A stretch of DNA of 44,205 nucleotides from Synechococcus sp. M44_DOE_062 (GTDB lineage: Bacteria > Cyanobacteriota > Cyanobacteriia > Thermostichales > Thermostichaceae), in contig DVDX01000019.1 of assembly GCA_015295985.1 (NCBI GenBank), positions 1 through 44,205 on the forward strand. The letters run 5' to 3'. The notes beneath the pieces were generated by a model. That model saw nothing but the letters and a program-made list of their open reading frames with translations. It searched no databases and was not told where the DNA came from. Below, piece after piece: positions 9,336 through 40,893 of this stretch. Each line of letters begins with the position of its first letter. Positions within the stretch are counted from its first letter, which is position 1. A program made the translations under genes and the position numbers.

Positions 9336-12191
9336 TCAGCGCTCCGTGCCGCTAGCGCGAACGGGCTGAGGTGGATCAATGCCAGACTGGATCCCTTGCC
9401 AGACCCGCTCTGGGGTGAGGGGCAGCCGACGCAAGCGAAGGCCGGTGGCTTGAAAGACGGCGTTGGCAATGGCAGGAGCGATGCAGTTGGTGGTGATTTC
9501 CCCCACGCCTTTGGCGCCAAAAGGCCCATAGGGATCCGCCTGTTGCACCAGGTGGACTTCGATGGGGGGAACTTCCTTGGCCGTGGGGATGCGGTAGTAG
9601 CGAAAGCCGGCGTTGAGGATCTGGCCTTGTTCATCTCGGATGAGTTCTTCGGAGAGGGCGTAGCCGATGCCCATGGCAGTGCCCCCAGCAACTTGTCCAT
9701 AGCAGATGCGCGGGTTGATGGCCGTGCCCAGATCGATGGCCTGCGCGATTTTCAGCAGCTCAATCTGGCCAGTCTCCATGTCCACTGCCAGTTCCACCCC
9801 CGCCACCGCAAAGGTGAGGGAAGATTCGTCGGCAGCATGGTGCAGCTCCACCTCGATGGGATCCGGAGTGCTTTGGGCCAGCTCCGGCAAAGTCAGGGAT
9901 CCCTGGGGAGCCGAAAAACACCCCTGCGCAAAACAAACTTGGTCGGGATCCGTCTGCAATCTCAGGGCAGCCGCTTGGATGAGTTTGTCCCGCAGGGCCA
10001 GGGCCGCCCGCCGACTGGCCTCGCCGGAAATGTACAAGGTGGCCGAGGCATAGGATCCGGCGTCGAAGGGGGTTTCTTGGGTATCGGCGGCGATGAGATC
10101 GATCTGGTTTATGGGGATCCCCAACACTTGGGCAACGATCTGGCGCAGGGTGGTATCGGAGCCGGTGCCCACATCCACTGCCCCACTGCGCATGAGGATG
10201 CGCCCGGAAGGCAAGAGGCTGAGCTTGACACCTGCCACGTGGATCTTGGAGAGGCCGCTCCCCTGCATGGAAATGGCAATGCCGCGCCCGTAGCGGCGGG
10301 ATCCCTGGGGTGGGGGAAGGGGGGTGCTGAAAGCCGTTTGAATCTTTTCAAAGCAGTCCTTGAGGCCGTAGCTGCCGATGAGGTTGAAGTGGGAATCCTT
10401 CCAATCGGCATCCTGCTGCTCTCGGTACCCCAGCGTGAGGGGATCCCCCGGCTGGATGACATTTTTCAGTCGCAACTGGATGGGATCCAGCCCTAATTTG
10501 TGGGCAATTTCGTCCATCTGGCATTCCACGGCGAAGGTTCCCTGGGTGGCTCCGTAGCCGCGGAAGGCTCCCCCCGGCATGGAGTTGGTGTAGACGGCAA
10601 AGCCCTCAAACCGCTTGTGGGGGCAGCGGTACAGCCCCAAGGGTATGTAGCCCGCCAAAAACACCACCGTCTGGCTGTGGTTGCCATAGGCGCCAGCATT
10701 GGCGTAGGCGGTGATCTCCTGGGCAACCAGGGATCCGTCGGATTTCACGCCGGTCTTGACGCGAATCTGCATGGCGTGGCGGCTGTTGGTGGCGGTGAAT
10801 TCCTCGCTGCGGGTGAGCTCCCACTGCACAGGTCGGCCCGTCTTCAGTGTTGCCAAGGCACAGAGGGGTTCGGTGAGGATTTCTTGCTTGTTGCCGAAGC
10901 CACCCCCGATTTTGCCCTTGATCACCCGAATGCGCTCGCGAGGGATCCCGGTGATCTCCGCCAAAACCCGCTGGCAGTGGAAGGGCACTTGTGTGCTGGA
11001 GCGCACCACCAGGCGGCCATCCGCCTCCAGCCAACTGGTGCTAACGTGGGGCTCCAGATGGGCGTGCTGCACGGCAGGGAGATGGTAGGTGTTCTCCAAA
11101 ATAAGATCTGCCTCGGCAAAGCCCTGCGCCGGATCCCCACTTTGCAGGCACACATATCCCGCCAAGTTGCGGCTGGCAAAGTCCTCCGTGCCGCTAACGC
11201 GAACGTTCATTGGCCGGGCCTCTGGCTCGTCATGGATGACCGGGGATCCCGGCTGCATGGCCTCCAGGGGATCCAGCACGTGGGGCAAAACCTCATACTC
11301 CACCTGGATGAGCTGGCAGGCCCGCTCGGCAATGGCCACCGACTCGGCCACCACCGCTGCCACTCCATCCCCCACAAAGCGCACTTTCTCATCCAGCACA
11401 AAGCGATCCAGGGGATCCGGCACCGGCTCCGCATGGCCGGCAGTGCTGTAAGCCCGACGCGGCACATCCCGATGGGTCAGTACGGCCACCACACCCGGCA
11501 GGGCCTGGGCTTGGCTGGTGTCGATACGGCGGATGCGGGCATGGGCATGAGGAGAGCGCAACAGCCGCAAATGAAGCAACCCGGCAGGAGCAAAATCGCC
11601 GGTGTAGGCAGGCTGACCGGAGACAATCTGCGGGCCATCTTGCTTGGGCACGTTGCGCCCCACACTCTCCAGCTCCGATTCGGGGAAAGTGCTATGCCTA
11701 CGGCACCCTGACGGGAACCGCACCGCTAAGGCGAACGAGGCGGGGATCCCTTGAATGCTTTCCAAAATGGCTTGATAGCCCGTGCAGCGGCAGAGGTTGC
11801 CCCGCAGTTGATCCCGCAGCTCCGCCTCGGACGGGATCCCTTCCCCACAGAGCTGACGAGCACTCAAGATCATCCCTGGCGTACAAAAGCCACACTGGAA
11901 CCCCTGCCCCTCTAAAAAGCGGGCCTGCATCGCATCCCACTCTCCGTTTTTGGCCAACCCCTCGATGGTGGTGATGGCTTGGCCCTGCAAGCGCGCCGCC
12001 GGGTACAGGCAACTGTGGATGGGATCCCCCTCCAACAACACCGTGCAAGCCCCGCAATCCCCCGATTCGCAGGCACGGCGCACCCCCACCCAGCCCAGCT
12101 CCCGCAACAAGCTCAGCAGAGTGATCCCCGGCGGAACCGCCTGCACATAGGGTTGGCCGTTCACCTGAAATCGGATGGGAATGGGATCCAT
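9336..12191 (-). CDS. Fused [2Fe-2S]/molybdopterin hydroxylase (XdhD-like)
   Basis: Xanthine dehydrogenase-family protein of 951 residues that joins the iron-sulfur subunit to the Mo subunit and lacks the FAD domain, as in E. coli XdhD. The N-terminal cluster ligands are C41, C46, C49, C61 and the second set C100, C103, C134, C136 (QCGFCTPG; LCRCTGY). The Mo part shows IGGGFGNKQE, GGAFRGYGATQG, DVGTGSDT and FGAKGVGEI with the catalytic Glu. The substrate is probably a purine or N-heterocycle, but this is not readable. No FAD subunit or XdhC-type maturation gene lies nearby. Three dispersed repeats are encoded inside it: at the domain linker (~153-170), at NVRVSGTEDFAS, and at the very C-terminus (RASGTER). 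Confidence 0.85.
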   Translation of the reverse strand: MDPIPIRFQVNGQPYVQAVPPGITLLSLLRELGWVGVRRACESGDCGACTVLLEGDPIHSCLYPAARLQGQAITTIEGLAKNGEWDAMQARFLEGQGFQCGFCTPGMILSARQLCGEGIPSEAELRDQLRGNLCRCTGYQAILESIQGIPASFALAVRFPSGCRRHSTFPESELESVGRNVPKQDGPQIVSGQPAYTGDFAPAGLLHLRLLRSPHAHARIRRIDTSQAQALPGVVAVLTHRDVPRRAYSTAGHAEPVPDPLDRFVLDEKVRFVGDGVAAVVAESVAIAERACQLIQVEYEVLPHVLDPLEAMQPGSPVIHDEPEARPMNVRVSGTEDFASRNLAGYVCLQSGDPAQGFAEADLILENTYHLPAVQHAHLEPHVSTSWLEADGRLVVRSSTQVPFHCQRVLAEITGIPRERIRVIKGKIGGGFGNKQEILTEPLCALATLKTGRPVQWELTRSEEFTATNSRHAMQIRVKTGVKSDGSLVAQEITAYANAGAYGNHSQTVVFLAGYIPLGLYRCPHKRFEGFAVYTNSMPGGAFRGYGATQGTFAVECQMDEIAHKLGLDPIQLRLKNVIQPGDPLTLGYREQQDADWKDSHFNLIGSYGLKDCFEKIQTAFSTPLPPPQGSRRYGRGIAISMQGSGLSKIHVAGVKLSLLPSGRILMRSGAVDVGTGSDTTLRQIVAQVLGIPINQIDLIAADTQETPFDAGSYASATLYISGEASRRAALALRDKLIQAAALRLQTDPDQVCFAQGCFSAPQGSLTLPELAQSTPDPIEVELHHAADESSLTFAVAGVELAVDMETGQIELLKIAQAIDLGTAINPRICYGQVAGGTAMGIGYALSEELIRDEQGQILNAGFRYYRIPTAKEVPPIEVHLVQQADPYGPFGAKGVGEITTNCIAPAIANAVFQATGLRLRRLPLTPERVWQGIQSGIDPPQPVRASGTER
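9341..9365 (+). repeat. Dispersed hairpin repeat
   Basis: GCGCTCCGTGC hairpin (one G-U pair) followed by CGCTAGCGCGAACG. It encodes the C-terminus (RASGTER) of the Mo hydroxylase on the minus strand. Confidence 0.7.
11184..11206 (+). repeat. Dispersed hairpin repeat
   Basis: CTCCGTGCCGCTAACGCGAACG inside the Mo hydroxylase gene, read as VRVSGTE on the minus strand. The hairpin is poorly conserved in this copy. Confidence 0.65.
11689..11740 (+). repeat. Dispersed hairpin repeat, probably two copies in tandem
   Basis: GTGCTATGCCTACGGCACC, then CTGACGGGAACC, then GCACCGCTAAGGCGAACG. It codes for the linker between the iron-sulfur and Mo parts of the hydroxylase. Confidence 0.55.
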
Positions 12192-12469
12192 AACAGTCTT
12201 CTTGCTTCACTCACCTTTACTCCATTCCGTTGTGAGCAAAATGTTTCGAGTGAACCATCAGAGTGCCCTCTTTGTCTCCATCCCTCTTCTTATAAGGTGA
12301 GGGGATCCTGCCTATCCCAGAAAGTGCTCCGCACCGCTAACGCGAACGGAGCAGGATTTTGTTGAATCCAAAGTGCAGGCCAAGCCTTCTTCAGGTGAGA
12401 CTCCTCCAATTCCCTCAACTCACTCGATCGTTACCCCAGGAGACGCCATGACAACTCTTCACCAAAAAA
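12192..12469. other. Intergenic region upstream of the hydroxylase
   Basis: About 280 bp with no convincing gene. It must contain the hydroxylase promoter. It also carries one well-formed dispersed repeat (12321-12353) and then runs into the IS relic. Confidence 0.4.
12321..12353 (+). repeat. Dispersed hairpin repeat
   Basis: GTGC-TCC-GCAC hairpin followed by CGCTAACGCGAACGG. The outer TGCTCCG and CGGAGCA are also inverted. Intergenic, upstream of the hydroxylase. Confidence 0.75.
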
Positions 12470-12778
12470 CTGGGTCTAAAGCCCCGCCCTTCAGGGCAGC
12501 TTTGTGCTATTCTGCCTGCAGCGGCAGGGTAGTCAACCGCTTTAAAAACCCAACAGTCTAACGACTGGATGCAGCCTCAATAAGCTTTGTAGTTGTTGTT
12601 CGCAACGGTACCTAAGGGCGTTAGGGAACCGCTCCATGCTTGCGTCGTCGGCGCGTATCGCTTGGGGAAACGCCTGGGGAGATGAGCACCGCTGCTTTGG
12701 CAGGGCAACCTGCCGAAGTAAGTGCTGTCGCAGAACCAGGAACCAGAATCCCTTGCCTCAAGGCAGGGGGGTATGTCA
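12470..12778 (+). mobile_element. IS200/IS605 relic (about 300 bp, MITE-like)
   Basis: The left part has a hairpin (GCCCCGCCCTTCAGGGC around 12481-12497) and AAAAACCCAACAGTC. The right part has AGAATCCCTTGCCTCAAGGCAGG followed by GGGGTATGTCAA, the same order as the IS right ends at both window edges. Just before that hairpin one frame reads AEPGTRIPCL, close to the tnpB C-terminus EASRVPAL seen at the right edge. Almost the whole transposase or nuclease gene is missing, so the element is an internally deleted, non-autonomous remnant. Its right end abuts the hsp20 coding region. Confidence 0.65.
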
Positions 12779-13226
12779 ATTTGGCCCTCTGCTCGAGGTG
12801 CAAGCTCTGCGACAGGAACCCAGCTCCCCCCGCCGGGAACGCTCGCGCTCCTTACTGCCCACCCCTCTGCAGGTTTGGGAGAGCGGCGCAGCCTACACCG
12901 TCCAGTTGTGGGTGCCCGGTGCCGACCGCGAACGCTTCAACATTGAGGCTACGGCTCAGCAACTCTCCATCAGCGGCGAGATCCAGGTACACGGGCCTGA
13001 AGGTGCCGAATTGCGCCATCAAGAAGTAGAGCCCCAACCTTTTCAACGCATCCTCAAGCTGGCCCACCGCATCCAGCCGGAGAAAGTCTCGGCCACCTAT
13101 CGCGACGGCATCCTCACCCTCACCCTGCCCAAAGCCGACGCAGCACGGGTGGTTAAAGTCCAAGTGGGTGCCTCAAGCCCCACCACTGCAGCGGAAGCCG
13201 TGGCGGTAGAAAGCCAACCTGCCTAG
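12636..13226 (+). CDS. Small heat shock protein Hsp20 with an IS-derived 5' end
   Basis: ATP-independent holdase chaperone. The alpha-crystallin domain is intact: VWESGAAYTVQLWVPGAD, LSISGEI, PFQRILKL, and the typical end YRDGILTLTLPKA with VVKVQV. The usual N-terminal segment is abnormal. From the ATG at 12636 about 45 residues are read through the IS relic. Family-like sequence begins at FGPLLEVQALRQE (compare WxPxREVxxLQRQ at normal starts), immediately after the IS end. The ATG inside the IS tail (12773) is out of frame. Another in-frame start is GTG 12798. The true start is therefore uncertain; the protein may be a chimera or may initiate late. Confidence 0.8.
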   Translation: MLASSARIAWGNAWGDEHRCFGRATCRSKCCRRTRNQNPLPQGRGVCQFGPLLEVQALRQEPSSPRRERSRSLLPTPLQVWESGAAYTVQLWVPGADRERFNIEATAQQLSISGEIQVHGPEGAELRHQEVEPQPFQRILKLAHRIQPEKVSATYRDGILTLTLPKADAARVVKVQVGASSPTTAAEAVAVESQPA

Positions 13227-13232
13227 GATCCC

Positions 13233-13264
13233 CAGTCTCCTCCCTCCCTTTTGGGGAGAGAGGA
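13233..13264. terminator. Possible bidirectional hairpin between convergent genes
   Basis: TCCTCCCTCCC pairs with GGGGAGAGAGGA around a TTTT loop with one mismatch, between the convergent hsp20 and SAM hydrolase genes. There is no clear T run on either side, so its function as a terminator is uncertain. Confidence 0.35.
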
Positions 13265-13265
13265 T

Positions 13266-14072
13266 CTAGCTACCCCACTGCACGCGCACCTCATCTCCCA
13301 CCTTAAAATCCAGTGCCCGGCTGGCATTGCCCCGGTTTTGTACAATCTCCACCCAGCCGGAGCTGCCCACCAAGGCCAGCACTTCGCCAACTTCTCCCTC
13401 GGCAAAAGTGGTTACGGAGCGGACGGGGATCCCTTTGACCGAGGCACTCCAGCTTCGACCCTCCACCCACTGTCCGGGAAGATTGCTGATGCCATTGCCG
13501 AAGTGATCGATGGCCTGGATGACACCACGCCAGCCGTCCGGCTCCTCCTGGGGCTGGGGCCAGTCCCACTGAGTGAGCTCTGCTGCATCCAGGGGATCCC
13601 CCAGTTCCGCCAAAGGGATCCCGTTGGCCAGATGAGCGGCAACCGGGGCAAAGATATCCCGCCCGTGAAAAGTGCGGCTAGGAGAGGGGGTGCGCCAATA
13701 GCGGGGCCGGTTGAGTTCCACAGCAGCCAGCGCTGGAGTTTGGGCCAAGACGCCACTGAACAGGCCATTGTCAGGGCCGACCAAAAAGCCCGTCTCGGTT
13801 TGGATGGCCACCGCCCGTCGACTGCTCCCCACCCCCGGATCCACAACTGCCAGGTGAATGGTGCCCGGCGGTAGATAGGGGTAGGCCGTCATCAGGGCAA
13901 AGCGAGCTGCTGCCACATCCTGGGGCGGGATCCCGTGGCTGAGGTCAATCAGCCGGGCTTGGGGAGCGATCCCCAGGATCACCCCCTTCAGGATGCCTAC
14001 GTAGGGATCCTGCAGGCCAAAATCCGTCAGTAGGCTGATGAAAATTTCCATCTTTGTTTCTATTGGTTCCAC
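13266..14072 (-). CDS. SAM hydroxide adenosyltransferase (DUF62 family)
   Basis: This family splits S-adenosylmethionine with water to adenosine and methionine and is related to fluorinases and chlorinases. Motifs are LLTDFGLQDPYVG at the N-terminus, IDLSHGIPPQD, VVDPGVGSSRR, VGPDNGLF, and in the C-terminal barrel IDHFGNGISN with FAEGEVG near the end. The length of 260-268 residues is typical. The frame starts at a GTG (14072), but the ATG seven codons later (MEIFISLLTDFG, 14051) agrees better with relatives. Its physiological role is unknown; it has no metabolic partner beside it. Confidence 0.88.
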   Translation of the reverse strand: MEPIETKMEIFISLLTDFGLQDPYVGILKGVILGIAPQARLIDLSHGIPPQDVAAARFALMTAYPYLPPGTIHLAVVDPGVGSSRRAVAIQTETGFLVGPDNGLFSGVLAQTPALAAVELNRPRYWRTPSPSRTFHGRDIFAPVAAHLANGIPLAELGDPLDAAELTQWDWPQPQEEPDGWRGVIQAIDHFGNGISNLPGQWVEGRSWSASVKGIPVRSVTTFAEGEVGEVLALVGSSGWVEIVQNRGNASRALDFKVGDEVRVQWGS

Positions 14073-14128
14073 TTCCCCGAGGGAAAGCGCTCTTTTGCAG
14101 TCCTACAGCTTCAACTTTTACAGTGACT

Positions 14129-14446
14129 CTACAATCGGCGCGCTTGATCCAAGGCGTCAAAGTACAGCAAGGCGAACGCCACCAGCGTCCACAGGCCGGC
14201 CACAAGGATCCCCACTCCCCACACCCAGGATCCCAAAAAACGCAGCGGCAACATCGCCAAATATCCCCAAAAAAATCCCAGAGGGTAGAGGACACTCAAA
14301 ACTATAGCGAAAAACAGGCCCCCCAATTCCAGCCCTTCTGCGAAGGCGTGTCCAAACCAGGCTTTGAACAGCCTGGAATAAAAATTGGTTAGCCAAAACC
14401 CCGGCCCGAAGAGCGGAATACAGGCTGCTACAGAGAGCAACAACAC
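14129..14446 (-). CDS. Small Trp-rich membrane protein, function unknown
   Basis: About 105 residues with three hydrophobic stretches (FFAIVLSVLYPLGFFWGYLA and WVWGVGILVAGLWTLVAFAL are clear). No family recognised. The GTG start at 14446 is doubtful. The frame stays open upstream through a Trp-rich segment to a stop near 14495, and a strong AAGGAGG at about 14488-14494 lies ahead of it without an ATG, GTG or TTG in this frame at the usual distance. It is read in the same direction as the upstream argZ gene, downstream of it. Confidence 0.5.
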   Translation of the reverse strand: MLLLSVAACIPLFGPGFWLTNFYSRLFKAWFGHAFAEGLELGGLFFAIVLSVLYPLGFFWGYLAMLPLRFLGSWVWGVGILVAGLWTLVAFALLYFDALDQARRL

Positions 14447-14559
14447 CCACCACCAAGCTCCAGCATCGGGCGGCAGCGGCCCAGGCCCTCCTTAAATCGA
14501 GTTGAGCTGGAACTTCGACAAAGACACCTGCAGGATAGCACCAGTTGTGGATGGGGTGG

Positions 14560-16692: not shown

Positions 16693-16763
16693 ACAATCTC
16701 AGACCGCAATCCGCAGCAGGGCACCCCCTAGATTAGCAGCTATGTGAGCGGCATCCTCAAGAA

Positions 16764-17516
16764 TCACTTGTGGGAGTCTTTCGCCAGCTCCGGCTGCAGT
16801 GGGCTGGGATCGGCGATGTTGGGCAACTCCAGACAGTAGCCCGCCCCGTAAACGGTTTTGATGTACTGAGGGTGGCGCGGATCCGGCTCCAGCTTGGTGC
16901 GCAGGTGGCGGATATGGACGCGGATGGTTTCAATGTCGTCGTCGGGCTCGTAGCCCCATACCTCTTGCAGGATTTCGCTGGGGGAAACGGTCTGCCCGTG
17001 TCGCTGCATCAGGCAGTGGAGCAGGTCAAACTCCAGGTGGGTGAGCTTGATGGTTTTGCCGAACCACAGGGCTTCAAAGCGCTCCGGCACCAGCGTGAGA
17101 GGGCCATAGGTGAGGATCTCGCCGTGTTTGGCCGCCTGTGGGATCCGGTCTGAGCGACGCAACAGGGCCCGCACCCGCACCAGCAGCTCCTGCACTTCAA
17201 AAGGCTTGGTCAGGTAGTCGTCGGCACCGGCATTGAAGCCCTCGATCTTATCCTGGGTTTGGCCAAGGGCAGTGAGCATCAAAATCGGGATCTCACTGGT
17301 GCGCTCCTCCCGCCGCAAGCGCTGACATACGGTTAGGCCGTCCACCTGGGGTAGCATCAGGTCGAGGATGATGAGATCGGGGAGAACCTGCAGAGCCAGC
17401 GCTTGTCCACGTACTCCGTCGGTGGCCTTCACGACCTCGTAGCCCGCCAACTCCAGATTGATGCGCAGAATATCCAGAATCGAAGGGTCGTCCTCAATAA
17501 TGAGTATGCGAGCCAT
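16764..17516 (-). CDS. rpaA: Response regulator RpaA (circadian output regulator)
   Basis: OmpR-class regulator, the main transcriptional output of the KaiABC clock through SasA and CikA in cyanobacteria. The receiver domain has acidic pocket EDD (8-10), phospho-acceptor D52 in ILDLML, and KPFE near 104. The linker [16 protein letters not shown] and the winged-helix segment [20 protein letters not shown] are close to RpaA rather than RpaB. The frame is open upstream to 17615, but [10 protein letters not shown] at 17516 is the family start. No kinase gene is adjacent. RpaA is preferred over RpaB on linker and C-terminal wording; confidence in the exact paralogue is good but not absolute. Confidence 0.88.
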
Positions 17517-17719
17517 AGCTGGTTGCAGCCCAAACTGCGGATAAAACGTTTTGTTAAATGTGCTAACAAAGAGTCGAAGCTTTACGACTCGAAGTTTACT
17601 TAATTTTAGCCTCATTGCAAATCTTGCTGCGCAGCTAGCCCGTAGGGTTGTCTAGCCCGGAACCGGATACGTGGGAAACTGTTCAACCCGTTGGGGGCAA
17701 ATGGGCGCGTTTTTAAGGC

Positions 17720-28608: not shown

Positions 28609-28625
28609 GGCCAGCCCCGCAACCC

Positions 28626-28901: not shown

Positions 28902-28949
28902 AGCCCAATGCTCTCGTCACTCCTAAAGACATCAAGAAAGACATCAAAA

Positions 28950-29470: not shown

Positions 29471-29574
29471 TGTGCAAAGCTCCTGAGCCAATAGGTCTAC
29501 GCCAGGGATCTTAACAGTTCTTCATTAAGATTCTGTTAAGAGGCCGTGGAGAGGGTCTTCCCTGCAAACCGAGT

Positions 29575-30915: not shown

Positions 30916-31199
30916 GGGCAGCCTCAAGGTGAAGGAAGGGATGGGCGCTGGATTGGGTTTACCCATCGTTGAGGGGAATCCTATCACCCACAATCCACTG
31001 CGTCAAATAAACCCGACTAGAACAGTCTGGATTGCATCCGGCTGGGGATAACGGGCCCTGTGCTGGGTTCTCCCAGGCACGGTCTGTTGGGTTGCGGATA
31101 ACCCTGTTCGTTGCTGCCCTCGCTAAGCTAGATAAGCAAGCCGAAATAACCTGAATAGAAGACTGGGGATCCCAGGTATTCATTTGGAACTGCCACCCT

Positions 31200-33137: not shown

Positions 33138-34195
33138 GCTCCGCCCCCACCCAGGTAGAGGGAAGGGATCCCTTCCAAGGGCAGGCGAGAGGCCACCCCC
33201 AGCTCCAGCGGCGAGACCTCCCCTCTCAGCCAATGGCAGAGACCAGCCGCCCCGATCATGGCCGCGTTGTCGGTACAGAGGGCCAGCGGCGGGATCACCA
33301 CCCGCAACCTCTTTTGCTGGGCTGCTTCCGTGAGGCGGGCCCTCAGCTCCCGATTGGCAGCCACCCCTCCAGTCAGCAGCAGTGTCGAGAGGCCCAGTGC
33401 TTCGGCACAGGCCACTGCTTTTTGGGCAAGCGCACTGGTCAGGCGGGCTTGAAAGCTGGCGGCAATATCGGCAATGGGCAACTCCTGGCCTTCTTGCTGC
33501 AACTGCTGCACTAGGCGCAACACTGCCGTTTTTAGGCCACTGAAGCTGCTGTCGTAGGGATGATCCAGCTTTCCCTCTGGCAGCGGGAACCGCTCTGGAT
33601 CCCCCTGCCGGGCCCAGCGGTCAATCTGCGGCCCTCCCGGATAACCCAGCCCCAACAGCCGCGCCACCTTATCAAACGCCTCGCCAGCAGCATCGTCGCG
33701 GGTGCGGCCCACCGTCTGGTACTCCCCGTAGTCCTTCATCCAAATCAGGCTGGTATGGCCTCCCGACACCAAAAGGCATAGGCAGGGGGGGCGCAAATCA
33801 GGCTCTGTCAAAAAGCCGCTGAAGAGATGGCCCTCCAGATGATGCACCCCGATCAGAGGCTTGTCGTAAAGCAAAGCCAAGGTCTTGGCCCCCATCAGCC
33901 CCACCAGCAGGGATCCCACCAGGCCCGGCGCACAAGTTACGGCAATGGCATCTACCTCGGTCACCTCCAATCCTGCCTGCTGCAGAGCCCTCTCCAGCAC
34001 AAAGGGCAGGGTTTCCACATGCTGACGAGAGGCCACCTCTGGCACCACCCCCCCGTAAGCCGCATGAAGATCGATTTGGCTGGCCACCACCGAGCTGAGC
34101 TGCCGCGGGGCAAACCCCGGCCAGGCTGCATCCGCCGCCACCACAGCCACAGCCGTTTCGTCACAACTGGTTTCGATGGCAAGGATGCGGGGCAT
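33095..34195 (-). CDS. tsaD: tRNA threonylcarbamoyladenosine synthase subunit TsaD
   Basis: ASKHA-fold enzyme that transfers the threonylcarbamoyl group to A37 of ANN-decoding tRNAs, working with TsaB and TsaE. Motifs are [10 protein letters not shown] at the N-terminus, metal ligands H119 and H123 in [36 protein letters not shown] and [11 protein letters not shown]. At 366 residues it is slightly longer than usual, owing to a C-terminal tail ([10 protein letters not shown]) that overlaps mnmG by 43 bp on the other strand. Confidence 0.96.
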
Positions 34196-34324
34196 AGGAG
34201 AGCAAGCTGGGGAAAGGAATAGGAAAGCCTTGGGATCCTTAATTAAGAATTGTGTGAGCTAAAACTCAGGATCCGTCGGGGCGAGGCGCTCAGGAGTATG
34301 ATACTAACCGTTTAGCTAGACCGC

Positions 34325-34572
34325 CGAGAAGCCCCGCCCTCTGTCCGTAGGACGAGGGTCGGAATGAAAGGCGGACATCTCCTGTTCTAGAATCAACTTG
34401 ACTGTACAAAACGGCATTGCCGGAATCTGGTACAGCTACGCGGTGGGGCATCCCGTGTCTGCTCGCAGAGGGTTCTTGCACTGGCTCCCCGATGAAGCGA
34501 GAAGCCTGCTCCGTTCGCGTCAGCGGTGCGTAGCACCAGACTGCCAGCAGTCGGAGTCGGGAGTATGTCACC
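34325..34572 (+). mobile_element. IS200/IS605 relic upstream of psaF
   Basis: The left side has GAAGCCCCGCCCTCTGTCCG with a pairing GGACGAGGG, like the left hairpin of the relic near 12481. The right side reads CCCCGATGAAGCGAGAAGCC, a short hairpin region, and ends GGGAGTATGTCACC, close to the GGGAGTATGTCAA tail at both window edges. The hairpin is interrupted by a dispersed repeat (34511-34538). Only fragments of a possible tnpB 3' end remain. Confidence 0.5.
34511..34538 (-). repeat. Dispersed hairpin repeat inside an IS relic
   Basis: On the minus strand GTGC-TAC-GCAC then CGCTGACGCGAACGG. It sits in the right-end hairpin of the IS relic upstream of psaF. Confidence 0.75.
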
Positions 34573-34626
34573 ATCCCTTAGCATTTGGACAGATCTTAGA
34601 CCCCTACCTCAAGGACACATCCTGCT

Positions 34627-35172
34627 ATGCGAACCTTTTTAAGCCTTCTTTTGGCCCTTTGCATCGCGCTTGGCCTCGCCCAATCTGTGCAGGCAGAGCC
34701 CTTGATCGGTCTGAAACCTTGCAGCGAAGTTCCCGCTTTTCAGGCTCTGATGAACGAACGCCTGAGCAGCCTAGAGGAGAAGATCCTCAACGCCAGCCCC
34801 GCTATGGCTCCCGTTTACCAACAAAAGCTGGCCCAAACCAGCAAGCGCTTTGAGCGCTACAGCAAGCTGCTCTGCGGCGAAGAGGGCCTGCCCCACCTGG
34901 TTACAGATGGTCGGTTGAACCATGCGGGCGAGTTTCTCATCCCCGGCCTGCTTTTCCTCTATATCGCCGGTTGGCTGGGCTGGGCTGGGCGTTCTTACCT
35001 CATCGCGGTTCGGGATGAGGATAGCCCCGAGATGAAAGAGAGCCTGATCGATGTACCGCTGGCGCTGCGCTGCTTCCTCACAGCTTTGGCTTGGCCCGCT
35101 GCTGCTTTCAAGGAGATTGCCAGCGGCGAAATTCGAGAGCCGGAAGCGGCTGTGCCCATCTCGCCCCGCTGA
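34627..35172 (+). CDS. psaF: Photosystem I subunit III PsaF
   Basis: Lumen-side PSI subunit that helps dock plastocyanin or cytochrome c6. The 181-residue precursor has a signal peptide (LSLLLALCIALGLAQSVQAEP, cleavage after QA). The mature part has the conserved Cys pair (LKPCSEV and KLLCGEEGLPHL). The membrane helix HAGEFLIPGLLFLYIAGWLGWAGR and a stromal tail ending with EIASGEI follow. It is first in a psaF-psaJ-psaL cluster; psaFJ is a standard cyanobacterial operon. The upstream region is occupied by an IS relic. Confidence 0.97.
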   Translation: MRTFLSLLLALCIALGLAQSVQAEPLIGLKPCSEVPAFQALMNERLSSLEEKILNASPAMAPVYQQKLAQTSKRFERYSKLLCGEEGLPHLVTDGRLNHAGEFLIPGLLFLYIAGWLGWAGRSYLIAVRDEDSPEMKESLIDVPLALRCFLTALAWPAAAFKEIASGEIREPEAAVPISPR

Positions 35173-35224
35173 GGAGCTGAGCCCGGCCTTCCAACTCGAT
35201 CTGTTCAATCTTTGAGAGGCATCT

Positions 35225-35344
35225 ATGGCTGACTTCACCAAGTTTCTCACCACTGCTCCGGTGGCGTTTATCCTGTTTTCCAGCTTCGTTTTTGCCTTGT
35301 TCATTGAAATCAATCGCTTCTTCCCCGACATTTTGACGTTCTGA
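35225..35344 (+). CDS. psaJ: Photosystem I subunit IX PsaJ
   Basis: A 39-residue, single-helix PSI subunit next to PsaF: MADFTKFLTTAPV, a hydrophobic core (AFILFSSFVFALFIEINR) and the end FFPDILTF, which is the standard PsaJ pattern. ATG at 35225 and TGA at 35342-35344, 52 bp after psaF. GAGG just upstream may be its ribosome site. A strong hairpin terminator follows nine bases later. Confidence 0.95.
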   Translation: MADFTKFLTTAPVAFILFSSFVFALFIEINRFFPDILTF

Positions 35345-35352
35345 GTGTAGGC

Positions 35353-35398
35353 CAGGGATCCCCAGTGCAACCACGCCCGACGGGATCCCTGCTTTTTT
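35353..35398 (+). terminator. Rho-independent terminator built from two GGGATCCC octamers
   Basis: CAGGGATCCC (35353-35362) pairs perfectly with GGGATCCCTG (35382-35391), a 10 bp stem with a 19-base loop, followed by CTTTTTT (35392-35398) and a second T run near 35403. It lies right after psaJ and would end the psaFJ transcript before psaL. Both arms are copies of the genome-wide octamer. Confidence 0.75.
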
Positions 35399-35443
35399 GA
35401 GCTTTTTTCCATCCTCTTTTGAACCGGACACAGAGTTGCTGAA

Positions 35444-35932
35444 ATGGTCGAACCCAATGCCGAGCCTGCTCCGTTGAATAGGTTGAATATAGATGAGGGA
35501 TATGTCACCGTCCCTGAGGGAGATCCGCAAATTGGCGATCTCTGGACACCGATCAACCACACACCTGTTGTCCGGCTGTTGATCGACTGGCTGCCCATCA
35601 ACCGACCGGGATTGAGTTCCATTTGGCGGGGCTTGGAAATCGGTATGGCCCACGGCTATTGGCTGGTCGGCCCCTTTGCCAAGCTGGGGCCGCTGCGCAA
35701 CGAGCCCATCGGTCTGCTGAGCGGCTTTTTGGGAGCCTGTGGCCTGATCCTGATCCTGACGGCGGCCCTTTCTCTCTACGGCTCTGTCACCTCGCAGCGC
35801 AACACAGGGCCGGTAAAGGGATCCCAATCTTGGAGCGAATTGGCTGCCGGCTTCTTGGTAGGGGGCATGGGGGGGGCGATCGTCGCCTACCTGCTTTTGC
35901 TAAATGCGGATCTCCTGATTCCTGCGTCTTAA
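35444..35932 (+). CDS. psaL: Photosystem I subunit XI PsaL
   Basis: Membrane subunit needed for PSI trimer formation. The 162 residues contain TPINHTPVVRLLIDWLPINRPGLS, RGLEIGMAHGYWLVGPFAKLGPLRN and two or three hydrophobic helices, ending GGAIVAYLLLLNADLLIP. It sits 100 bp after psaJ, separated by the terminator, so it may have its own promoter. Start at ATG 35444. Confidence 0.97.
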   Translation: MVEPNAEPAPLNRLNIDEGYVTVPEGDPQIGDLWTPINHTPVVRLLIDWLPINRPGLSSIWRGLEIGMAHGYWLVGPFAKLGPLRNEPIGLLSGFLGACGLILILTAALSLYGSVTSQRNTGPVKGSQSWSELAAGFLVGGMGGAIVAYLLLLNADLLIPAS

Positions 35933-35938
35933 TTGAGG

Positions 35939-36139
35939 CTATTGGCCTTCCATCACATCATCCACAACGTCTTTGATTGCCTCTCGAGCATCTTCGACTC
36001 CAGGGTGGGCGGCTGCTTCCGCTTGCTCGGCCTTGCCTTCCAGCCTTTCACGCTGATCGCTGGCCAGCTCACCCACAATTTCCTGGATTTTGCTCTCCAG
36101 ATTCTTGGCAGTGGCTCCACCTTGCTTTTCAAGGCTCAT
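35939..36139 (-). CDS. CsbD-like stress protein
   Basis: A 66-residue hydrophilic, Ala/Glu/Lys-rich protein of the CsbD type: ATAKNLESKIQEIVGELASD and GKAEQAEAAAHPGVEDAREA. CsbD proteins are induced by general stress, and their molecular role is unknown. The frame is open upstream to 36292, but ATG 36139 (MSLEKQGGATAKN) fits relatives and has GAAGGGA 8-14 bases upstream. It is convergent with psaL, with 6 bp between the stops. Confidence 0.78.
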   Translation of the reverse strand: MSLEKQGGATAKNLESKIQEIVGELASDQRERLEGKAEQAEAAAHPGVEDAREAIKDVVDDVMEGQ

Positions 36140-36346
36140 AACATCGGTCCCTTCACCGGCTTTGCCCTGTCTACTCGATAGCACCTTTTCTCTTTGGGCC
36201 TCGTGATCCAAATCACCTGCAAGGCAGCAAAGAGGGCGGCTCGGGCTGGCAGACCAGAGGAAGCTTGTCTTAGGATGGACTGAATTCTGCAATGAGCCGA
36301 TAACAGCGGTTCTAGAGATTTTTCTGCCTATCTTTCGTGAGCTGCT

Positions 36347-36778
36347 GTGAACGATCTGCTGTCCGAGCCCACTTCTGAAAGGCTCTCCTTAGCCGAGATC
36401 CGTCGCCTATCGCCCGCAGCCTTGGCCTACCTGGGAGACGCCATTTACGAACTGCACGTGCGGCGGCAACGGTTATTTCCGCCAGATCGACTGGAGCGCT
36501 ATCATCAGCAGGTGGTGAGGCGGGTACGCGGCTCGGCTCAGGCCAAGTTGCTGTTGGCCCTGTTGCCCCATCTCAGCCCCGAGGAGCAGGAAATTGTCCG
36601 CTGGGGTCGCAATGGCTGCGGTCGCCCACCCCGACATCTGCCTCTGGCCGACTACCAAAACGCCAGCGGCCTGGAAACGGTTCTGGGCTATCTCTACCTG
36701 GCCAATCCCGAACGGCTGCGCCATATCCTCGCCCTCACTGATGTTTTGGCCGAGACCCTGGGCGAGTGGGAAGGTTAG
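36347..36778 (+). CDS. mrnC: Mini-ribonuclease III
   Basis: RNase III catalytic domain without the double-stranded RNA-binding domain, 143 residues, that trims 23S rRNA precursor ends in relatives. Key stretch LSPAALAYLGDAIYELHVRR carries the metal-binding Asp and Glu. The second part has YQNASGLETVLGYLYL with the second acidic pair. It starts with GTG at 36347. It precedes rlmB by 33 bp, so two ribosomal RNA maturation genes are adjacent, a common pairing. Confidence 0.92.
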   Translation: MNDLLSEPTSERLSLAEIRRLSPAALAYLGDAIYELHVRRQRLFPPDRLERYHQQVVRRVRGSAQAKLLLALLPHLSPEEQEIVRWGRNGCGRPPRHLPLADYQNASGLETVLGYLYLANPERLRHILALTDVLAETLGEWEG

Positions 36779-36811
36779 GATAGTCTTTCCGTCTCTCCTT
36801 CTTCCACGCCC

Positions 36812-37954
36812 ATGCCCAAGACTTCTCAGCGCAAACCTGCTTCACGGCTGTCTCGCTCGGGCAAACTGCAGCGGCGAGGGGCAGGGCAATCCGTCAGCAA
36901 GCGGGTGCAGCGGCCCAAACACCGAGACGGGGATCCCAAGCTTGCCCCTGGAGAGGCTCCGGTGAAGCCGATCCGCCGCAACGCGCAACAGCAGTCGCCC
37001 CAAGGCAAGATGGCTCCCCAACCGGCAGGCAGGCTAGATCCCAGCCTTTCCATGGGTGGGACAGGGGTTCTGCTGCAAGAAGTCCAGCCTCAGGCCAACC
37101 GGGATCCGGAGACCGATCTGGAGCAAGAGATCATCTACGGTCGCCAGACGGTACTGGCTGCCCTGAGAAGTCAAGCCACCCTCAACCGGGTTTGGATTCT
37201 GCCGAGGTTGCGCTACAGCCCCCAATTTTTGTCTCTGTTGGAAGAAGCCAAAGCGCGGGGCACCGTCATCGACGAAGTCTCCCCACAGCGGCTACACACT
37301 CTCACCGCTGGCGCTAACCACCAGGGTGTCGCTGCCCAAGCCACGCCTTATCAGTACATGGATCTGGAGGATTTGGTGGAAAAAAGCCGGCAGGCCAGCC
37401 CCAATCCGGTGCTGGTGGTTCTAGACGGGATCCAGGATCCCCACAACTTGGGAGCCATTGCCCGTAGCGTGGAGGCTTTTGGCATGCAGGGGATGGTGAT
37501 CCCCCAACGGCGGGCAGCAGGGGTAACCTCGACGGTGATGAAGGTGGCGGCGGGGGCCCTCTCTACCTTGCCGGTGGCGCGGGTGGTGAATTTGAATCGG
37601 GCTTTGGAATACCTCAAAGAGCAGGGGTTTTGGGTTTATGGCACCACCAGCCGAGGAGCTGATCCCATCTATGGCGCCGATTTTCAACGGCCCATTGCCT
37701 TGGTGGTGGGATCCGAAGGGGAAGGGATTAGCCTGCTCACGCAACGCCATTGTGACCAACTGCTGTCCATTCCCTTGGCAGGCCGTACTGAAAGCTTGAA
37801 TGCTTCTGTGGCCACCGGCATTGCCCTCTACGAAATCTACCGGCAGCGCTCTCCCCACCGCCTCAAACGCCTCGAGGCTGATACATTCCTCAACAAATCC
37901 TCAACAAAAGCAGTAGAATCTAGGGGATTGCAAAAAATATCCAATGATCGTTAG
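36812..37954 (+). CDS. rlmB: TrmH-family rRNA 2'-O-methyltransferase (RlmB-like)
   Basis: SPOUT methyltransferase that methylates a ribose in 23S rRNA in relatives. The first ~105 residues are a basic, low-complexity extension (MPKTSQRKPASRLSRSGK and more) typical of cyanobacterial members. The substrate-binding domain begins IIYGRQTVLAALR. The catalytic knot has LDGIQDPHNLGAIARS, ALVVGSEGEGIS and IPLAGRTESLNASVATGIAL. At 380 residues it is long only because of the extension. It is probably cotranscribed with mrnC. Confidence 0.92.
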   Translation: MPKTSQRKPASRLSRSGKLQRRGAGQSVSKRVQRPKHRDGDPKLAPGEAPVKPIRRNAQQQSPQGKMAPQPAGRLDPSLSMGGTGVLLQEVQPQANRDPETDLEQEIIYGRQTVLAALRSQATLNRVWILPRLRYSPQFLSLLEEAKARGTVIDEVSPQRLHTLTAGANHQGVAAQATPYQYMDLEDLVEKSRQASPNPVLVVLDGIQDPHNLGAIARSVEAFGMQGMVIPQRRAAGVTSTVMKVAAGALSTLPVARVVNLNRALEYLKEQGFWVYGTTSRGADPIYGADFQRPIALVVGSEGEGISLLTQRHCDQLLSIPLAGRTESLNASVATGIALYEIYRQRSPHRLKRLEADTFLNKSSTKAVESRGLQKISNDR

Positions 37955-37970
37955 CCCTTGTTAATGGGGG

Positions 37971-38228
37971 ATGGATCCCGTGAGCAACCTTTTGGCCAGT
38001 CTGTTGGATAAGCTGCGCGGCCTATCGGTCTGGATCGAGATCACCACCGAGGACTGCATCTACTACTACGGCCCCTTCTCCGATGAAGCTGAGGCAGAGC
38101 GGCTTAAAGGCCACTACATCGCCGACCTGCAAAAGGAGGGAGCCAAAAAGATCCAGGCTCTGGTGAAGAAAATGCGCCAGCCGCAGTCTCTGACGGTGAC
38201 CCGTACTCCGTCGGGAGCGCGTTCCTGA
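37971..38228 (+). CDS. DUF1816 domain protein
   Basis: An 85-residue protein with the DUF1816 pattern: VWIEITTEDCIYYYGPFSDEAEAE, then GHYIADLQKEGAKKI. This is a small cyanobacterial family, some members of which are linked to phycobilisome or stress regulation; no biochemical function is known to me. The stop TGA (38226-38228) overlaps the ATG of the ferredoxin gene (TGATG), which points to translational coupling. Confidence 0.85.
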   Translation: MDPVSNLLASLLDKLRGLSVWIEITTEDCIYYYGPFSDEAEAERLKGHYIADLQKEGAKKIQALVKKMRQPQSLTVTRTPSGARS

Positions 38229-38545
38229 TGTCCGCTATGACCTATCAAGTAACCCTTCATCACCGTGGCCAAACCTACCACTTCCCTGCCTCTGCGGATC
38301 AGACGCTTTTACAAGCTGCTCTTGAGCATGGGATAGAGCTACCTTCCTCTTGTCAGGCGGGGGTTTGCACCACCTGTGCGGGGCGGCTAAGGTTAGGATC
38401 CGTGACTCAGACAGAGGCAATGGGGATTGGGCCAGAACTGCAGGCCCAGGGGTTTGTGCTGCTGTGTGTAGCCTATGCTACCTCAGATTTGGAGGTGGAG
38501 ACTGATCAAGAGGAAGAAGTTTACCGTTTGCAGTTTGGCTCCTGA
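38228..38545 (+). CDS. Plant-type [2Fe-2S] ferredoxin
   Basis: A 105-residue ferredoxin with the cluster motif CQAGVCTTCAG (CxxxxCxxC) and a fourth Cys in LLCVAYATSD. The acidic C-terminus ETDQEEEVYRL is typical. It diverges from the main PetF sequence, so it is probably a specialised electron carrier rather than the main PSI acceptor. It is coupled to the upstream DUF1816 gene by a TGATG overlap. Confidence 0.92.
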   Translation: MSAMTYQVTLHHRGQTYHFPASADQTLLQAALEHGIELPSSCQAGVCTTCAGRLRLGSVTQTEAMGIGPELQAQGFVLLCVAYATSDLEVETDQEEEVYRLQFGS

Positions 38546-38591
38546 CCGCGCCGGATTTCTGTTTAGGCCTACTTGTTAGTAGGTGTTATAG

Positions 38592-38723
38592 TCATTTCGG
38601 TTCAAACTGAGACACTGTACCCACAACTAAAACCTTGGTCGCGTCAGCGTTGCGGAGCAATAATGTAGGGGCCCAAAAGGTTTTTCTCAGTAGCCCAGGT
38701 GTCTCATCCCAACCTGAAACTAC
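38592..38723. mobile_element. MITE-like repeat, copy 1
   Basis: About 130 bp that starts TCATTTCGGTTCAAACTGAGAC and ends GTGTCTCATCCCAACCTGAAAC. The ends are imperfect inverted repeats with a perfect inner TGAGACAC/GTGTCTCA. A second copy is at 40792-40893. Both contain a dispersed hairpin repeat at the same internal position. No coding capacity. Confidence 0.65.
38638..38664 (-). repeat. Dispersed hairpin repeat inside MITE copy 1
   Basis: On the minus strand TTGC-TCC-GCAA then CGCTGACGCGACC. Confidence 0.75.
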
Positions 38724-38786
38724 TATATTGTTTATAAGTTATCGAGAGTAAGTCTGTTTTCTTGGCGAGACCGGTTCTCGACTCCT

Positions 38787-39017
38787 GTGAAGTTGCATTT
38801 GCTGCACCTATCTCTGCCGTTGAGCTTGCCTCTCTCTGCCCCGCAACTGGAGCAATCCCTCTGTCAGCAAGTTGACCGGGAGTTGGGACAGCCAGCCCAA
38901 CTTCTGCGCTGGAGCCTGACGGCGGTGGAGGGAGACAGAGCCTGGGTTGAGGTAGTGGCCACCACCGATCGCGCTAGCGGGACGGAGTCCTTTGAGGGCT
39001 ACTCAGGTTTAGACTAG
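38787..39017 (+). CDS. Small unknown protein with repeat-encoded C-terminus
   Basis: A 76-residue protein from a GTG start: MKLHLLHLSLPLSLPLSAP, then QLLRWSLTAVEGDRAWVEVVATT. I believe short proteins like this are conserved in cyanobacteria, but I know no function. The last ~15 residues (RASGTESFEGYSGLD) are coded by a dispersed repeat (38967-39002), so the original C-terminus seems replaced or extended. A MITE-like repeat lies 63 bp upstream. Confidence 0.6.
   Translation: MKLHLLHLSLPLSLPLSAPQLEQSLCQQVDRELGQPAQLLRWSLTAVEGDRAWVEVVATTDRASGTESFEGYSGLD
38967..39002 (-). repeat. Dispersed hairpin repeat at a gene end
   Basis: On the minus strand GGAC-TCC-GTCC then CGCTAGCGCGATCGG. It codes the last residues of the small gene at 38787 (RASGTESFEG). 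Confidence 0.75.
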
Positions 39018-39191
39018 GGCAATTCACTCTTGGTTAGCTTCTGAACAGAACGTCTGGAAGAGTTTTCCCCATACCTCAGCAGCCTCAGGCTGATCGGGAA
39101 CCAAGAGTTTCATTGCTACGTTGAAGAGATGGTTCATATTGATTGATGGAAATGGCTATCGGTACCCTTGCCCGTTTTTGTCGTTTGGCCG

Positions 39192-40058
39192 ATGTCTGTC
39201 TATGCATCTGAACCAACTCCGGCTCCACTGCTGGCCGAGCAGCACCCCCCTGTTGCCCTCACCATTGCTGGATCCGACAGTGGTGGAGGAGCAGGGATCC
39301 AAGCGGATCTGCGCACCTTTGCTTTCCAACGGGTACACGGCACCTCTGCCCTGACCTGCGTGACCGCCCAGAATACCCTTGGGGTGAGCCGGGTCGATGC
39401 GCTGCCCCCTGAAGCTGTGGCCGCCCAAATTGAGGCTGTGGTGCAGGACATCGGGGTGCAAGGGATCAAGACGGGCATGCTGCTGAATGCCGAGATCGTG
39501 CTGGAGGTAGCCCGTCAGGTGGAGCGCTGGACGTTGCGGCCTCTGGTGGTGGATCCGGTGATGGTGTCCCGCACGGGAGCGAAGTTGTTGGCAGATGAGG
39601 CCATTCAGGCCATCCGCGAGCGGCTGATCCCCTTGGCTCAGGTGCTGACCCCCAACCGCTATGAGGCGCAAATTTTAACGGGGCTGGAGCTGCAGTCCCT
39701 GGCAGATATGCAAACGGCGGCCCAGCGGATCCGCGCCTTGGGTTGTGGAGCGGTGTTGGTTAAGGGCGGGGGTATGCCGGGGGAACTGCAGGGGGTGGAT
39801 GTGTGGTTCGATGGCGAGCGACTGGAAGTGCTGAAAACAGAGCGGATTTCCACCCGCCACACTCACGGCACCGGCTGTACCCTCTCGGCAGCCATTGCGG
39901 CACAGATGGCCTGGGGTAAGGATCCCTTTGCGGCCACGGTGGCAGCCAAAGCCTATGTAACGGAGGCGCTGCGACATCCTTTGGCCATCGGGTCAGGGCA
40001 GGGGCCGGTGGGGCACTTCTACCCGCTTCTATCTGGGATCGGGGAACCTGTGCCATAA
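39192..40058 (+). CDS. thiD: Hydroxymethylpyrimidine/phosphomethylpyrimidine kinase
   Basis: Thiamine biosynthesis kinase of the ribokinase fold, acting twice on the pyrimidine precursor. Motifs are [54 protein letters not shown] and the anion hole [15 protein letters not shown]. About 288 residues from ATG 39192 (MSVYASEP); a TTG at 39168 in the same frame is the alternative. No clear ribosome site for either. The next gene begins 26 bp downstream. No other thi genes are nearby. Confidence 0.93.
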
Positions 40059-40084
40059 GAGAGAAGTCCCTCTCTCTGGCTGCT

Positions 40085-40651
40085 ATGGCTGGCCCGTCGC
40101 ATCGTTCTCAGAAGGGATCCCTGCCCGAATGGCGGTTTTGGCTACCCCTCCTGCTGCAACTGGGTATCGTTCTGCTGATACCGTCTCGGCAAGCGTTGAC
40201 CCTTGCTGTCGGAACCACGATCTACCTGCAAACGGCCCCCGTGGATCCCTATGACCTTTTGCGGGGCCGGTACGTGACCTTGGGCTACGTCGTCGCTCAA
40301 CGCTCCACCCTAGAGCAACTGCCGGGCTGGTCACCTGAATTGGAGATGCCAGGGATCCTTTATCTGCGCTTAGCTCCCCCCGCAGGGGATCCCACTCAAC
40401 CTTGGCCAGCCATCGGTGTCAGCCGGGAGATGCCCAAAGATTTGCAGCCCGAAGAGAAAGTGCTGCGAGGCTGGTTTGACGGGCAGCAGCTCAAGTTGGG
40501 AATCGAAGAATTTTTTATTCCCGAAGCGATTGGAGATGCCTTGGAAGAGGATATTCGGCGTTACCCCGAAGCCACGCGGGCAGAAGTGAAAGTGGATCCC
40601 TGGGGCAAGGCCGCATTGGTCGGCCTCTGGGTGGGAGAGCGTCGGTACTAA
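40085..40651 (+). CDS. Membrane-anchored GDYXXLXY-like protein
   Basis: A 188-residue protein with one N-terminal membrane segment (FWLPLLLQLGIVLLIPSRQALTL) and an exported domain. The pattern PVDPYDLLRGRYVTLGY matches the GDYXXLXY-type domain. The later stretch WFDGQQLKLGIEEFFIPE, with YPEATRAEVKVDPWGKAALVGL, is also characteristic. Function unknown. It follows thiD closely on the same strand and may be cotranscribed. Confidence 0.78.
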   Translation: MAGPSHRSQKGSLPEWRFWLPLLLQLGIVLLIPSRQALTLAVGTTIYLQTAPVDPYDLLRGRYVTLGYVVAQRSTLEQLPGWSPELEMPGILYLRLAPPAGDPTQPWPAIGVSREMPKDLQPEEKVLRGWFDGQQLKLGIEEFFIPEAIGDALEEDIRRYPEATRAEVKVDPWGKAALVGLWVGERRY

Positions 40652-40791
40652 GTGTATTCTTGGCTTTGGACTTCTTTAGCTTTCACAATCCGAAAGCTCT
40701 TTATCTAGCATAATCTCATGCTTCTTTAATTTTTCAATTTTTATTTGGCTCTAGCGATGATTTCAGTCCCTGAGCTGAAAACAAGCTATGG

Positions 40792-40893
40792 CCATTTCGA
40801 TTCAAACTAGGACACCGCACCCACACCTAAAACGCTGGTCGCGTCAGTGTTGCGGAGCAATATAACCCAGGTGCTCACCCTAACCTGAAACAA
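40792..40893. mobile_element. MITE-like repeat, copy 2
   Basis: About 100 bp: CCATTTCGATTCAAACTAGGAC at the left, CACCCTAACCTGAAACA at the right. It is clearly related to copy 1 at 38592, which has about 30 extra bases after the hairpin repeat. The core dispersed repeat (40838-40862) is at the same place in both. Confidence 0.65.
40838..40862 (-). repeat. Dispersed hairpin repeat inside MITE copy 2
   Basis: On the minus strand TTGC-TCC-GCAA then CACTGACGCGACC, at the same internal position as in MITE copy 1. Confidence 0.7.

Follow-up and report, generated by a model that had tools for sequence, protein, structure and literature searches.

The window analyzed here is a stretch of 44,205 nucleotides (contig DVDX01000019.1, positions 1 to 44,205) of Synechococcus sp. 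M44_DOE_062. It is contig 84 in a draft genome (G000) of 2.93 Mb and 90 contigs. Genes for a xanthine dehydrogenase-type protein, an ABC transporter, and serine hydroxymethyltransferase (SHMT) are present, and copies of a very short repeat are scattered along the stretch. In most copies a small hairpin of variable sequence precedes a nearly constant block, CGCTRACGCGAACG. This block was matched 17 times in the window at no more than two mismatches, against 0.36 matches expected, and 0 of 100 shuffles reached 17. The dispersed repeat family claimed in an earlier note on this DNA is therefore borne out. A total of 20 copies or pieces were counted from 9337 to 40862. These are 16 of the 17 block matches, a nested copy at 11694, a host piece at 19684, and the copies at 22487 and 40838. 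The remaining block match, at 6173 on the minus strand, is counted apart as doubtful.

The hairpin is mostly 11 nt long and has a 4-bp stem and a loop of TCC or TAC. It is present at all 13 coordinates that the earlier note had named, and the stem classes given there (GTGC, TTGC, GGCC, and GGAC) were recovered, along with TCGC, GCGC, TGCC, and others. The block was said to follow the hairpin at each of these coordinates. It does so at 12 of the 13, where the block at 40838 (CACT) carries additional mismatches; the one at 19682 is split by another copy. Decayed stems were found in two window copies, at 9350 (3/4 pairs) and 11192 (2/4 pairs). No known RNA family was matched when the window was scanned with Rfam at gathering scores.

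The draft genome has 148 block matches at no more than one mismatch, and the reversed pattern gives 4. Across 30 genomes, this one included, each of the six from the genus has 4 to 26 copies of the exact block, and the others have 0 to 2. Counted by exact stem plus core, there are 107 GGAC, 46 TTGC, and 43 GTGC copies in G000. The stem classes vary by species. In the relatives G001, G002, G003, G004, and G005, the respective counts are 37, 5, 26, 159, and 21 for GGAC, 8, 10, 0, 40, and 61 for GTGC, and 4, 0, 2, 24, and 7 for TTGC.

Structure of the unit

The unit can be written as X-[23-nt core: A/G-stem-TMC-stem-CGCTNNCGCGA]-Y and contains two tandem hairpins. The second hairpin, CGC-TRAC-GCG, lies inside the constant block; it is 94.9% paired and nearly invariant. 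The nested copies carry CCC...GGG in this helix instead of CGC...GCG. Five strands were folded, and both hairpins formed in DNA folding and in RNA folding.

Covariation in the first hairpin was examined in 132 of 151 listed copies, all from the genus and chosen by their block rather than by their hairpin. Rows from outside the genus were excluded, as were repeat units belonging to two tandem arrays. All four stem pairs are formed in 87 of the 132 copies, compared with a mean of 20.9 and a maximum of 34 when the 3' arms are shuffled. Changes on both sides were found at 4/4 pairs, and 87.9% of cells are paired. The covariation score is 0.380, against 0.122 +/- 0.011 for shuffled arms (0/500 reach it) and at most 0.073 for slid ones. 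A weaker measure counts the pairs in which both sides have changed, and 48 of 500 shuffles reached the observed number. The earlier note had called for a statistical test of its claim that the stems stay paired through sequence change, and the score lies far above chance. Single stem mismatches are G.T in 12 cases and A.C in 13. Wobble is not preferred, so nothing here points to a constraint at the RNA level, and selection on RNA through G.U wobble was not seen.

Empty sites and point of entry

Orthologous places in the genus were located by DNA searches, and the bases between both element flanks were read in each relative. A counterpart was found for 19 of the 42 sites tested, of which one (L044) is weak and spurious. 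No counterpart with 0-3 nt between the flanks was found at 23 sites, including 9350, 11724, 12335, 19586, 19713, 21357, and 22500 of the window. The copies at 19974 (a 21-nt variant) and 23812 (target TTTCGG) had no counterpart in the scripted test and were read directly from alignments.

Exactly one base, a T, lies between the flanks in the best match at 17 of 18 sites, although at L035 the T in G004 ties with a C in G000 as closest match. At the 18th site (17759) the base is also T once a 12-nt hairpin is allowed for. C and a purine come right after this T in 14/18 sites. The net gain is 24 nt at 17 of the 18. Edges X and Y are A,A at ten sites, G,A at four, A,T at two, T,C at one, and T,A at one. 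The target T is thus kept at one edge in 4/18 sites and replaced in 14/18. The T is the entry point, either kept next to the insert or replaced. The comparison with empty sites gives no target duplication and a fixed short target.

The site in MetH is filled in G000 and G004 and empty in G001, G002, G003, and G005. Since several relatives lack a copy, such sites are insertions and not deletions. The suggestion that the repeat is mobile is confirmed by these empty orthologous sites. They rule out an old immobile sequence, with copies at the same sites in all relatives.

Hairpin class and flanking bases

The bases beside a copy depend on its hairpin class. In a first test, 144 copies with dissimilar flanks were used (241 before flank-redundant copies were removed), and one GCAC copy that fits neither class was left uncounted. 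Position +14 is G in 50/54 copies whose stem has A or C at its third base, compared with 35/89 others (p 5.5e-11). Position +15 is G in 4/54 and 45/89, respectively (p 5.4e-8). The association is also present within G000 alone. This test mixed GTGC and TTGC copies collected by stem only with GGAC copies, many of which had been found with +11..+13 fixed, and all three classes were therefore collected again by stem and core alone.

This second collection of 176 copies was reduced to 118 with dissimilar flanks, 47 GGAC, 47 GTGC, and 24 TTGC. Position +14 is G in 39/47 GGAC copies and in 26/71 of GTGC and TTGC together (p 6.1e-7), and +15 is G in 4/47 and 38/71 (p 2.3e-7). In TTGC copies, X is T in 22/24, against 19/47 for GTGC (p 3e-5), and -16 is C in 22/24, against 28/94 for the others (p 3e-8). 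Because these preferences differ between classes, the choice of target seems to involve the variable hairpin. This dependence of the genomic flank on hairpin class is apparently new.

Arrangement of copies along the window

The doubtful match (6175..6199, minus strand) has a GAAC/GTCC stem (3/4 pairs) and a CCC loop and lies within a large open frame. It may be an old copy. On the plus strand, the first copy (9337..9361) has the stem GCGC/GTGC (3/4 pairs). The next (11179..11203), with a decayed GTCC/GTGC stem, is in the xanthine dehydrogenase-type gene, and its site is empty in G003 and G005 (target GCA|TCGT). A composite follows at 11689..11737, in which the loop (T|CC) of a GTGC-class copy holds a second copy (11694-11717), TGCC-TAC-GGCA followed by CCCTGACGGGA. 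A GTGC/GCAC copy is found at 12322..12346. The copy at 17745..17770 has the 12-nt hairpin GTGCTTCGGCAC and lies near the 3' end of an ABC transporter gene. The corresponding site is filled in G004, and there is no copy in G001, G002, G003, and G005.

A TTGC/GCAA copy (19239..19263) is in the ABC transporter gene, with empty sites in G001, G003, and G004 (G004: CCGT|CAGG). A GGCC/GGCC copy (19524..19548; G004 empty, AGCC|TCAG) and a TTGC/GCAA copy (19573..19597) follow. At 19682..19733 a GGCC-class copy (19684-19699 and 19725-19733) is split by a TTGC-class copy (core 19701-19723) at CGCTAT|CGCG. The variant at 19964..19984 is an insertion of 21 nt, ATTGCTTCGCCGCTATCGCGA, and is empty in G004 (GAAGT|TCGG). 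The SHMT gene contains a GGCC/GGCC copy (21007..21031), which adds KASGPLTR in frame. The plus-strand series ends with TTGC/GCAA copies at 21344..21368 and 22487..22511, the latter absent from the list in the earlier note.

The other copies are on the minus strand. A GGAC/GTCC copy (23814..23838) is filled in G004 and empty in G001 (TT|TCGG). A GTGC/GCAC copy lies at 34514..34538, and no repeats of at least 14 nt were found in window 33900-35200. A TTGC/GCAA copy (38638..38662), a GGAC/GTCC copy with T at its right edge (38968..38992; GCGATCGG), and a TTGC/GCAA copy with the block CACTGACGCGACC (40838..40862) complete the series. The two minus-strand TTGC copies, in 38600-38670 and 40800-40870, have the common flank GTTTTAG-TGTGGGT..., and L289 in G004 is alike. 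Since the flanks are common, both copies apparently ride in a longer dispersed repeat.

The nested TGCC-type copy with CCC...GGG recurs in the loop of another copy at L011 2027, L020 2069, L009 2977, and L073 2427, as at 11694-11717 of the window. The composite itself therefore seems to spread. Tandem forms are also present. G005 has 14.1 head-to-tail copies with a period of 24 (the stretch includes a short N run), G004 has 3.1 with the same period, and G102, outside the genus, has two. Some contigs of G000 end within head-to-tail 24-nt arrays (C74:3-72, C33:8-53, C81:9-54, and C40:13736-13805), and the assembly gaps may thus hide larger arrays.

Insertions in coding sequence

All 33 sites examined fall in open frames that are 100 codons long or longer. 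This means little by itself because the DNA is GC-rich. Of 20 such frames that were scanned, 17 match Pfam. The core lies inside the best Pfam stretch at 7 of the 21 sites placed. In G000 these are the central domain of DnaN, the C-terminal domain of Fe-ADH, a CoA-binding domain, AIRS_C of PurL, and SHMT; in other genomes they are GH3 (G004) and DUF2254 (G003). The core is between domains in MetH, in the GyrA-type subunit of G001, and in the xanthine dehydrogenase-type protein, and outside the Pfam stretches reported at the remaining sites placed.

Copies in frame add eight residues, either within conserved proteins (DnaN, PurL, and SHMT) or between domains (MetH and the GyrA-type subunit), which bears out the coding insertions of the earlier note. 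SRQRDGVP is among the commonest peptides encoded. The insertion in SHMT was not seen in any of the relatives G001-G005. As read from the sequence, five of the six frames of the unit are open when the R of TRAC is G, and four of six when it is A. A gain of 24 nt, or eight codons in mostly open frames, is tolerable in coding sequence and should therefore help the element to persist in a gene-dense genome.

Occurrence in other cyanobacteria

A covariance model of the unit (R1), of the kind proposed in the earlier note and used with strict filters and at most 19 candidates scored per genome, had matches at E <=0.001 in 38 of the 388 genomes of the class. An exact TTGC pattern, which itself required A at the right edge, was found at 28 loci, all cyanobacterial by title (Dolichospermum, Anabaena, Aphanizomenon, Cylindrospermum, Trichormus, Okeania, and others). 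At 23 of these, the sequence after the element is CAACCCA, with which a minitransposon (TTGGGTTTC...CAACCCAAC) ends. The minitransposon has an empty form, TTGGGTTTCGTTCC-T-CAACCCAACC (one exact copy), and a filled form, TTGGGTTTCGTTCC-ATTGCTCCGCAACGCTGACGCGAA-CAACCCAACC. Three TTGC loci (L222, L223, and L232) are in GCGAT|CGC, which is HIP1. The T entry point is thus common to the genus and to the closely related element in the minitransposons and HIP1 sites of Nostocaceae. A viral carrier was looked for with one exact 24-letter pattern of the GGAC class, which had 0 matches in viral contigs.

Some single loci were also observed. L032 (G023) and L215 (G067) have a near-consensus GGAC copy with similar flanks in two genomes of another family, perhaps through gene transfer. 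L031 (G013) and L040 (G022), from other cyanobacterial families, are variants with a longer stem of 5 bp (e.g., TTGCC-TTC-GGCAA) ahead of the usual block.

Comparison with known elements

SDR4, SDR5, and SDR6 are small dispersed repeats (SDRs) of cyanobacteria, reportedly described by Elhai et al. in 2008. They are said to be 21-27 nt long, to have a hairpin with compensatory changes, and to be nested in their own copies and inside minitransposons and HIP1. The element is like these SDRs in its dispersed unit of about 24 nt, its covarying hairpin, its nesting, and its minitransposon and HIP1 sites, both of these outside the genus. It is unlike them in its thermophilic unicellular genus, its classes (GGAC, GTGC, GGCC, GCGC, and TCGC), its T-C-R target, its in-frame gene insertions, and in that no RVT_1 was found in the genus. 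Because its traits match that description, it is placed as a new member of the SDR kind, a placement made on traits. The entry rule, missing RVT_1, in-frame insertions, and class-dependent flanks can be called additions to that kind. According to PMC4390886, SDR5 inserts within HIP1. No description of the element family in hot-spring Synechococcus was found in the open-licence papers searched.

Other short elements can also be compared. Rickettsia palindromic elements (RPEs) insert in genes in frame, as this element does, and are about 100-150 bp; the present unit is much shorter and has another structure. The substrates of IS200/IS605 TnpA and the PATEs end in hairpins, cause no duplication of the target, and use a short one. 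The element shares hairpins, a short target, and lack of duplication with these, but totals 24 nt, has no separate left and right ends, often replaces its T, and has no clear strand bias. REP elements and REPINs with RAYT appear in PMC3116915 and PMC3733652, the latter of which also mentions RPEs, as short dispersed hairpins that are sometimes within genes. That description fits the element too; it differs in that it has no GTAG/CGTC tag and no RAYT was found among the Y1 proteins scanned.

Possible routes of movement

With moderate confidence, the repeat is interpreted as a tiny mobile DNA element that is non-autonomous and belongs with the SDRs of cyanobacteria. A DNA enzyme acting in trans would recognize the folded single strand, with its variable 4-bp hairpin and nearly invariant CGC-TRAC-GCG hairpin. 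It would open the target at T and join a copy of the element at this point, in many cases replacing the T. Target choice would depend in part on the variable hairpin. A DNA-level route is favored over one through RNA and a reverse transcriptase.

The earlier note had read the repeat as a REP element moved by a RAYT transposase. A short hairpin does adjoin a constant block, and Y1 proteins are present; Y1_Tnp has 49 matches in 10/10 genomes searched, all six of the genus included. Seven of these proteins were scanned, among them the three loci of G000, and none of the seven reaches the 80-bit RAYT cut-off (best RAYT score 29.9). All seven match IS200/IS605 TnpA instead; six score above the TnpA cut-off, and the seventh is a fragment that falls short of it at 30.6 bits. 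The hairpin lacks a conserved GTAG or CGTC tag at its ends (consensus nAAGnnCTCCGnnCCGCTGACGCGAACGG). On the minus strand, CGTC is confined to helix 2 of units with G as R; on the plus strand, it is confined to the arm of the GGAC class. Neither a REP end tag nor, among the seven proteins scanned, a RAYT was found, and this route appears very improbable. Single-strand transposition of the IS200/IS605 type, in which TnpA (HUH Y1) acts in trans on the hairpins, would agree with the Y1_Tnp matches throughout the genus, with the hairpins, short target, and lack of duplication, and with class-dependent flanks, which resemble guide pairing. Elements of this type have an orientation bias with the replication strand, and the GTGC class in G004 has 13 plus and 27 minus copies (p 0.038). 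That imbalance fades to 10/17 when thinned to one copy per 5 kb (p 0.25). In the same genome TTGC is 13/11, GGAC is 87/72, and the 62 listed of 151 matches are 31/31 in orientation, with no arc bias. Judging by their sequences, the three TnpA loci of the 90-contig draft look inactive. The first His of HUH is replaced in L169 (C71) and L171 (C16), which have PIH and AIH, and the third locus is interrupted by a stop. Moreover, G001 has 19 Y1 matches yet has the exact block only 7 times, whereas G000 has it 26 times, and the target T is often replaced. The IS200/IS605 route is considered rather unlikely.

A small structured RNA could also be reverse transcribed into the target, as has reportedly been proposed for Nostoc SDRs. 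The unit folds as RNA too, and RVT_1 proteins are present in 9 of 14 other copy-bearing genomes searched. They are missing in five, namely four f27 genomes and G362 (G139, G102, G174, G062, and G362). RVT_1 also has no match in any of the six genus genomes, where copies are most abundant, in a search that would miss reverse transcriptases unlike RVT_1. The stem mismatches, without wobble preference, do not favor an RNA intermediate either, and it is judged improbable. Spread could also be free of any enzyme, through template switching during replication or capture of short oligonucleotides at breaks, with the hairpin only promoting stalling. The 24-nt tandem arrays, the variable X and Y bases, and the copies in which T is replaced rather than cleanly joined are consistent with this. 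However, constant unit ends and a T target at 18/18 sites look enzymatic, and flanks are predicted by hairpin class; such spread is thought unlikely.

Several observations weigh against the preferred reading, a DNA element moved in trans. No enzyme was identified, and a DNA enzyme is inferred by exclusion, to which the limit of the RVT_1 search also applies. The strand evidence is mixed, without a clear bias. The site base is C or G in some relatives (L010 and L012 in G001; L035 in G000). The loss of T at 14/18 sites is inflated because the pattern by which most sites were found requires a right-edge A. Where this requirement was dropped, 47 GGAC copies have A (19), T (15), C (8), or G (5) at this edge, so clean insertion beside T is also common. 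When +11..+13 is restricted to ACG, 21 copies are left, with p 0.024 and 0.12. The flank association could come partly from family history or coding selection, and no pairing rule that explains it was found. Helix 2 hardly varies, and covariation therefore backs it weakly. Lastly, 4-bp hairpins are weak. The whole unit as single-stranded DNA has -4.2 to -6.1 kcal/mol at 37 C (z-scores -1 to -2), and the host likely grows above that temperature.

A more specific and still tentative proposal, doubtful as a whole, is that this DNA of 25 nt, with its two hairpins, forms a full substrate for transposition. The variable hairpin would guide target choice, with the stem setting the bases accepted around T, the enzyme that moves it would belong to neither the reverse transcriptases nor the RAYTs, and the element would be an in-frame module of eight residues in conserved proteins such as the sliding clamp.

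The mechanism is testable here because entry takes place at one sharply defined T, RVT_1 was not found in the genus, and hairpin class predicts the flanks. The element thus offers a case for testing how tiny repeats move. In addition, its in-frame insertion in conserved proteins is a route by which selfish DNA can add short peptides to central enzymes.

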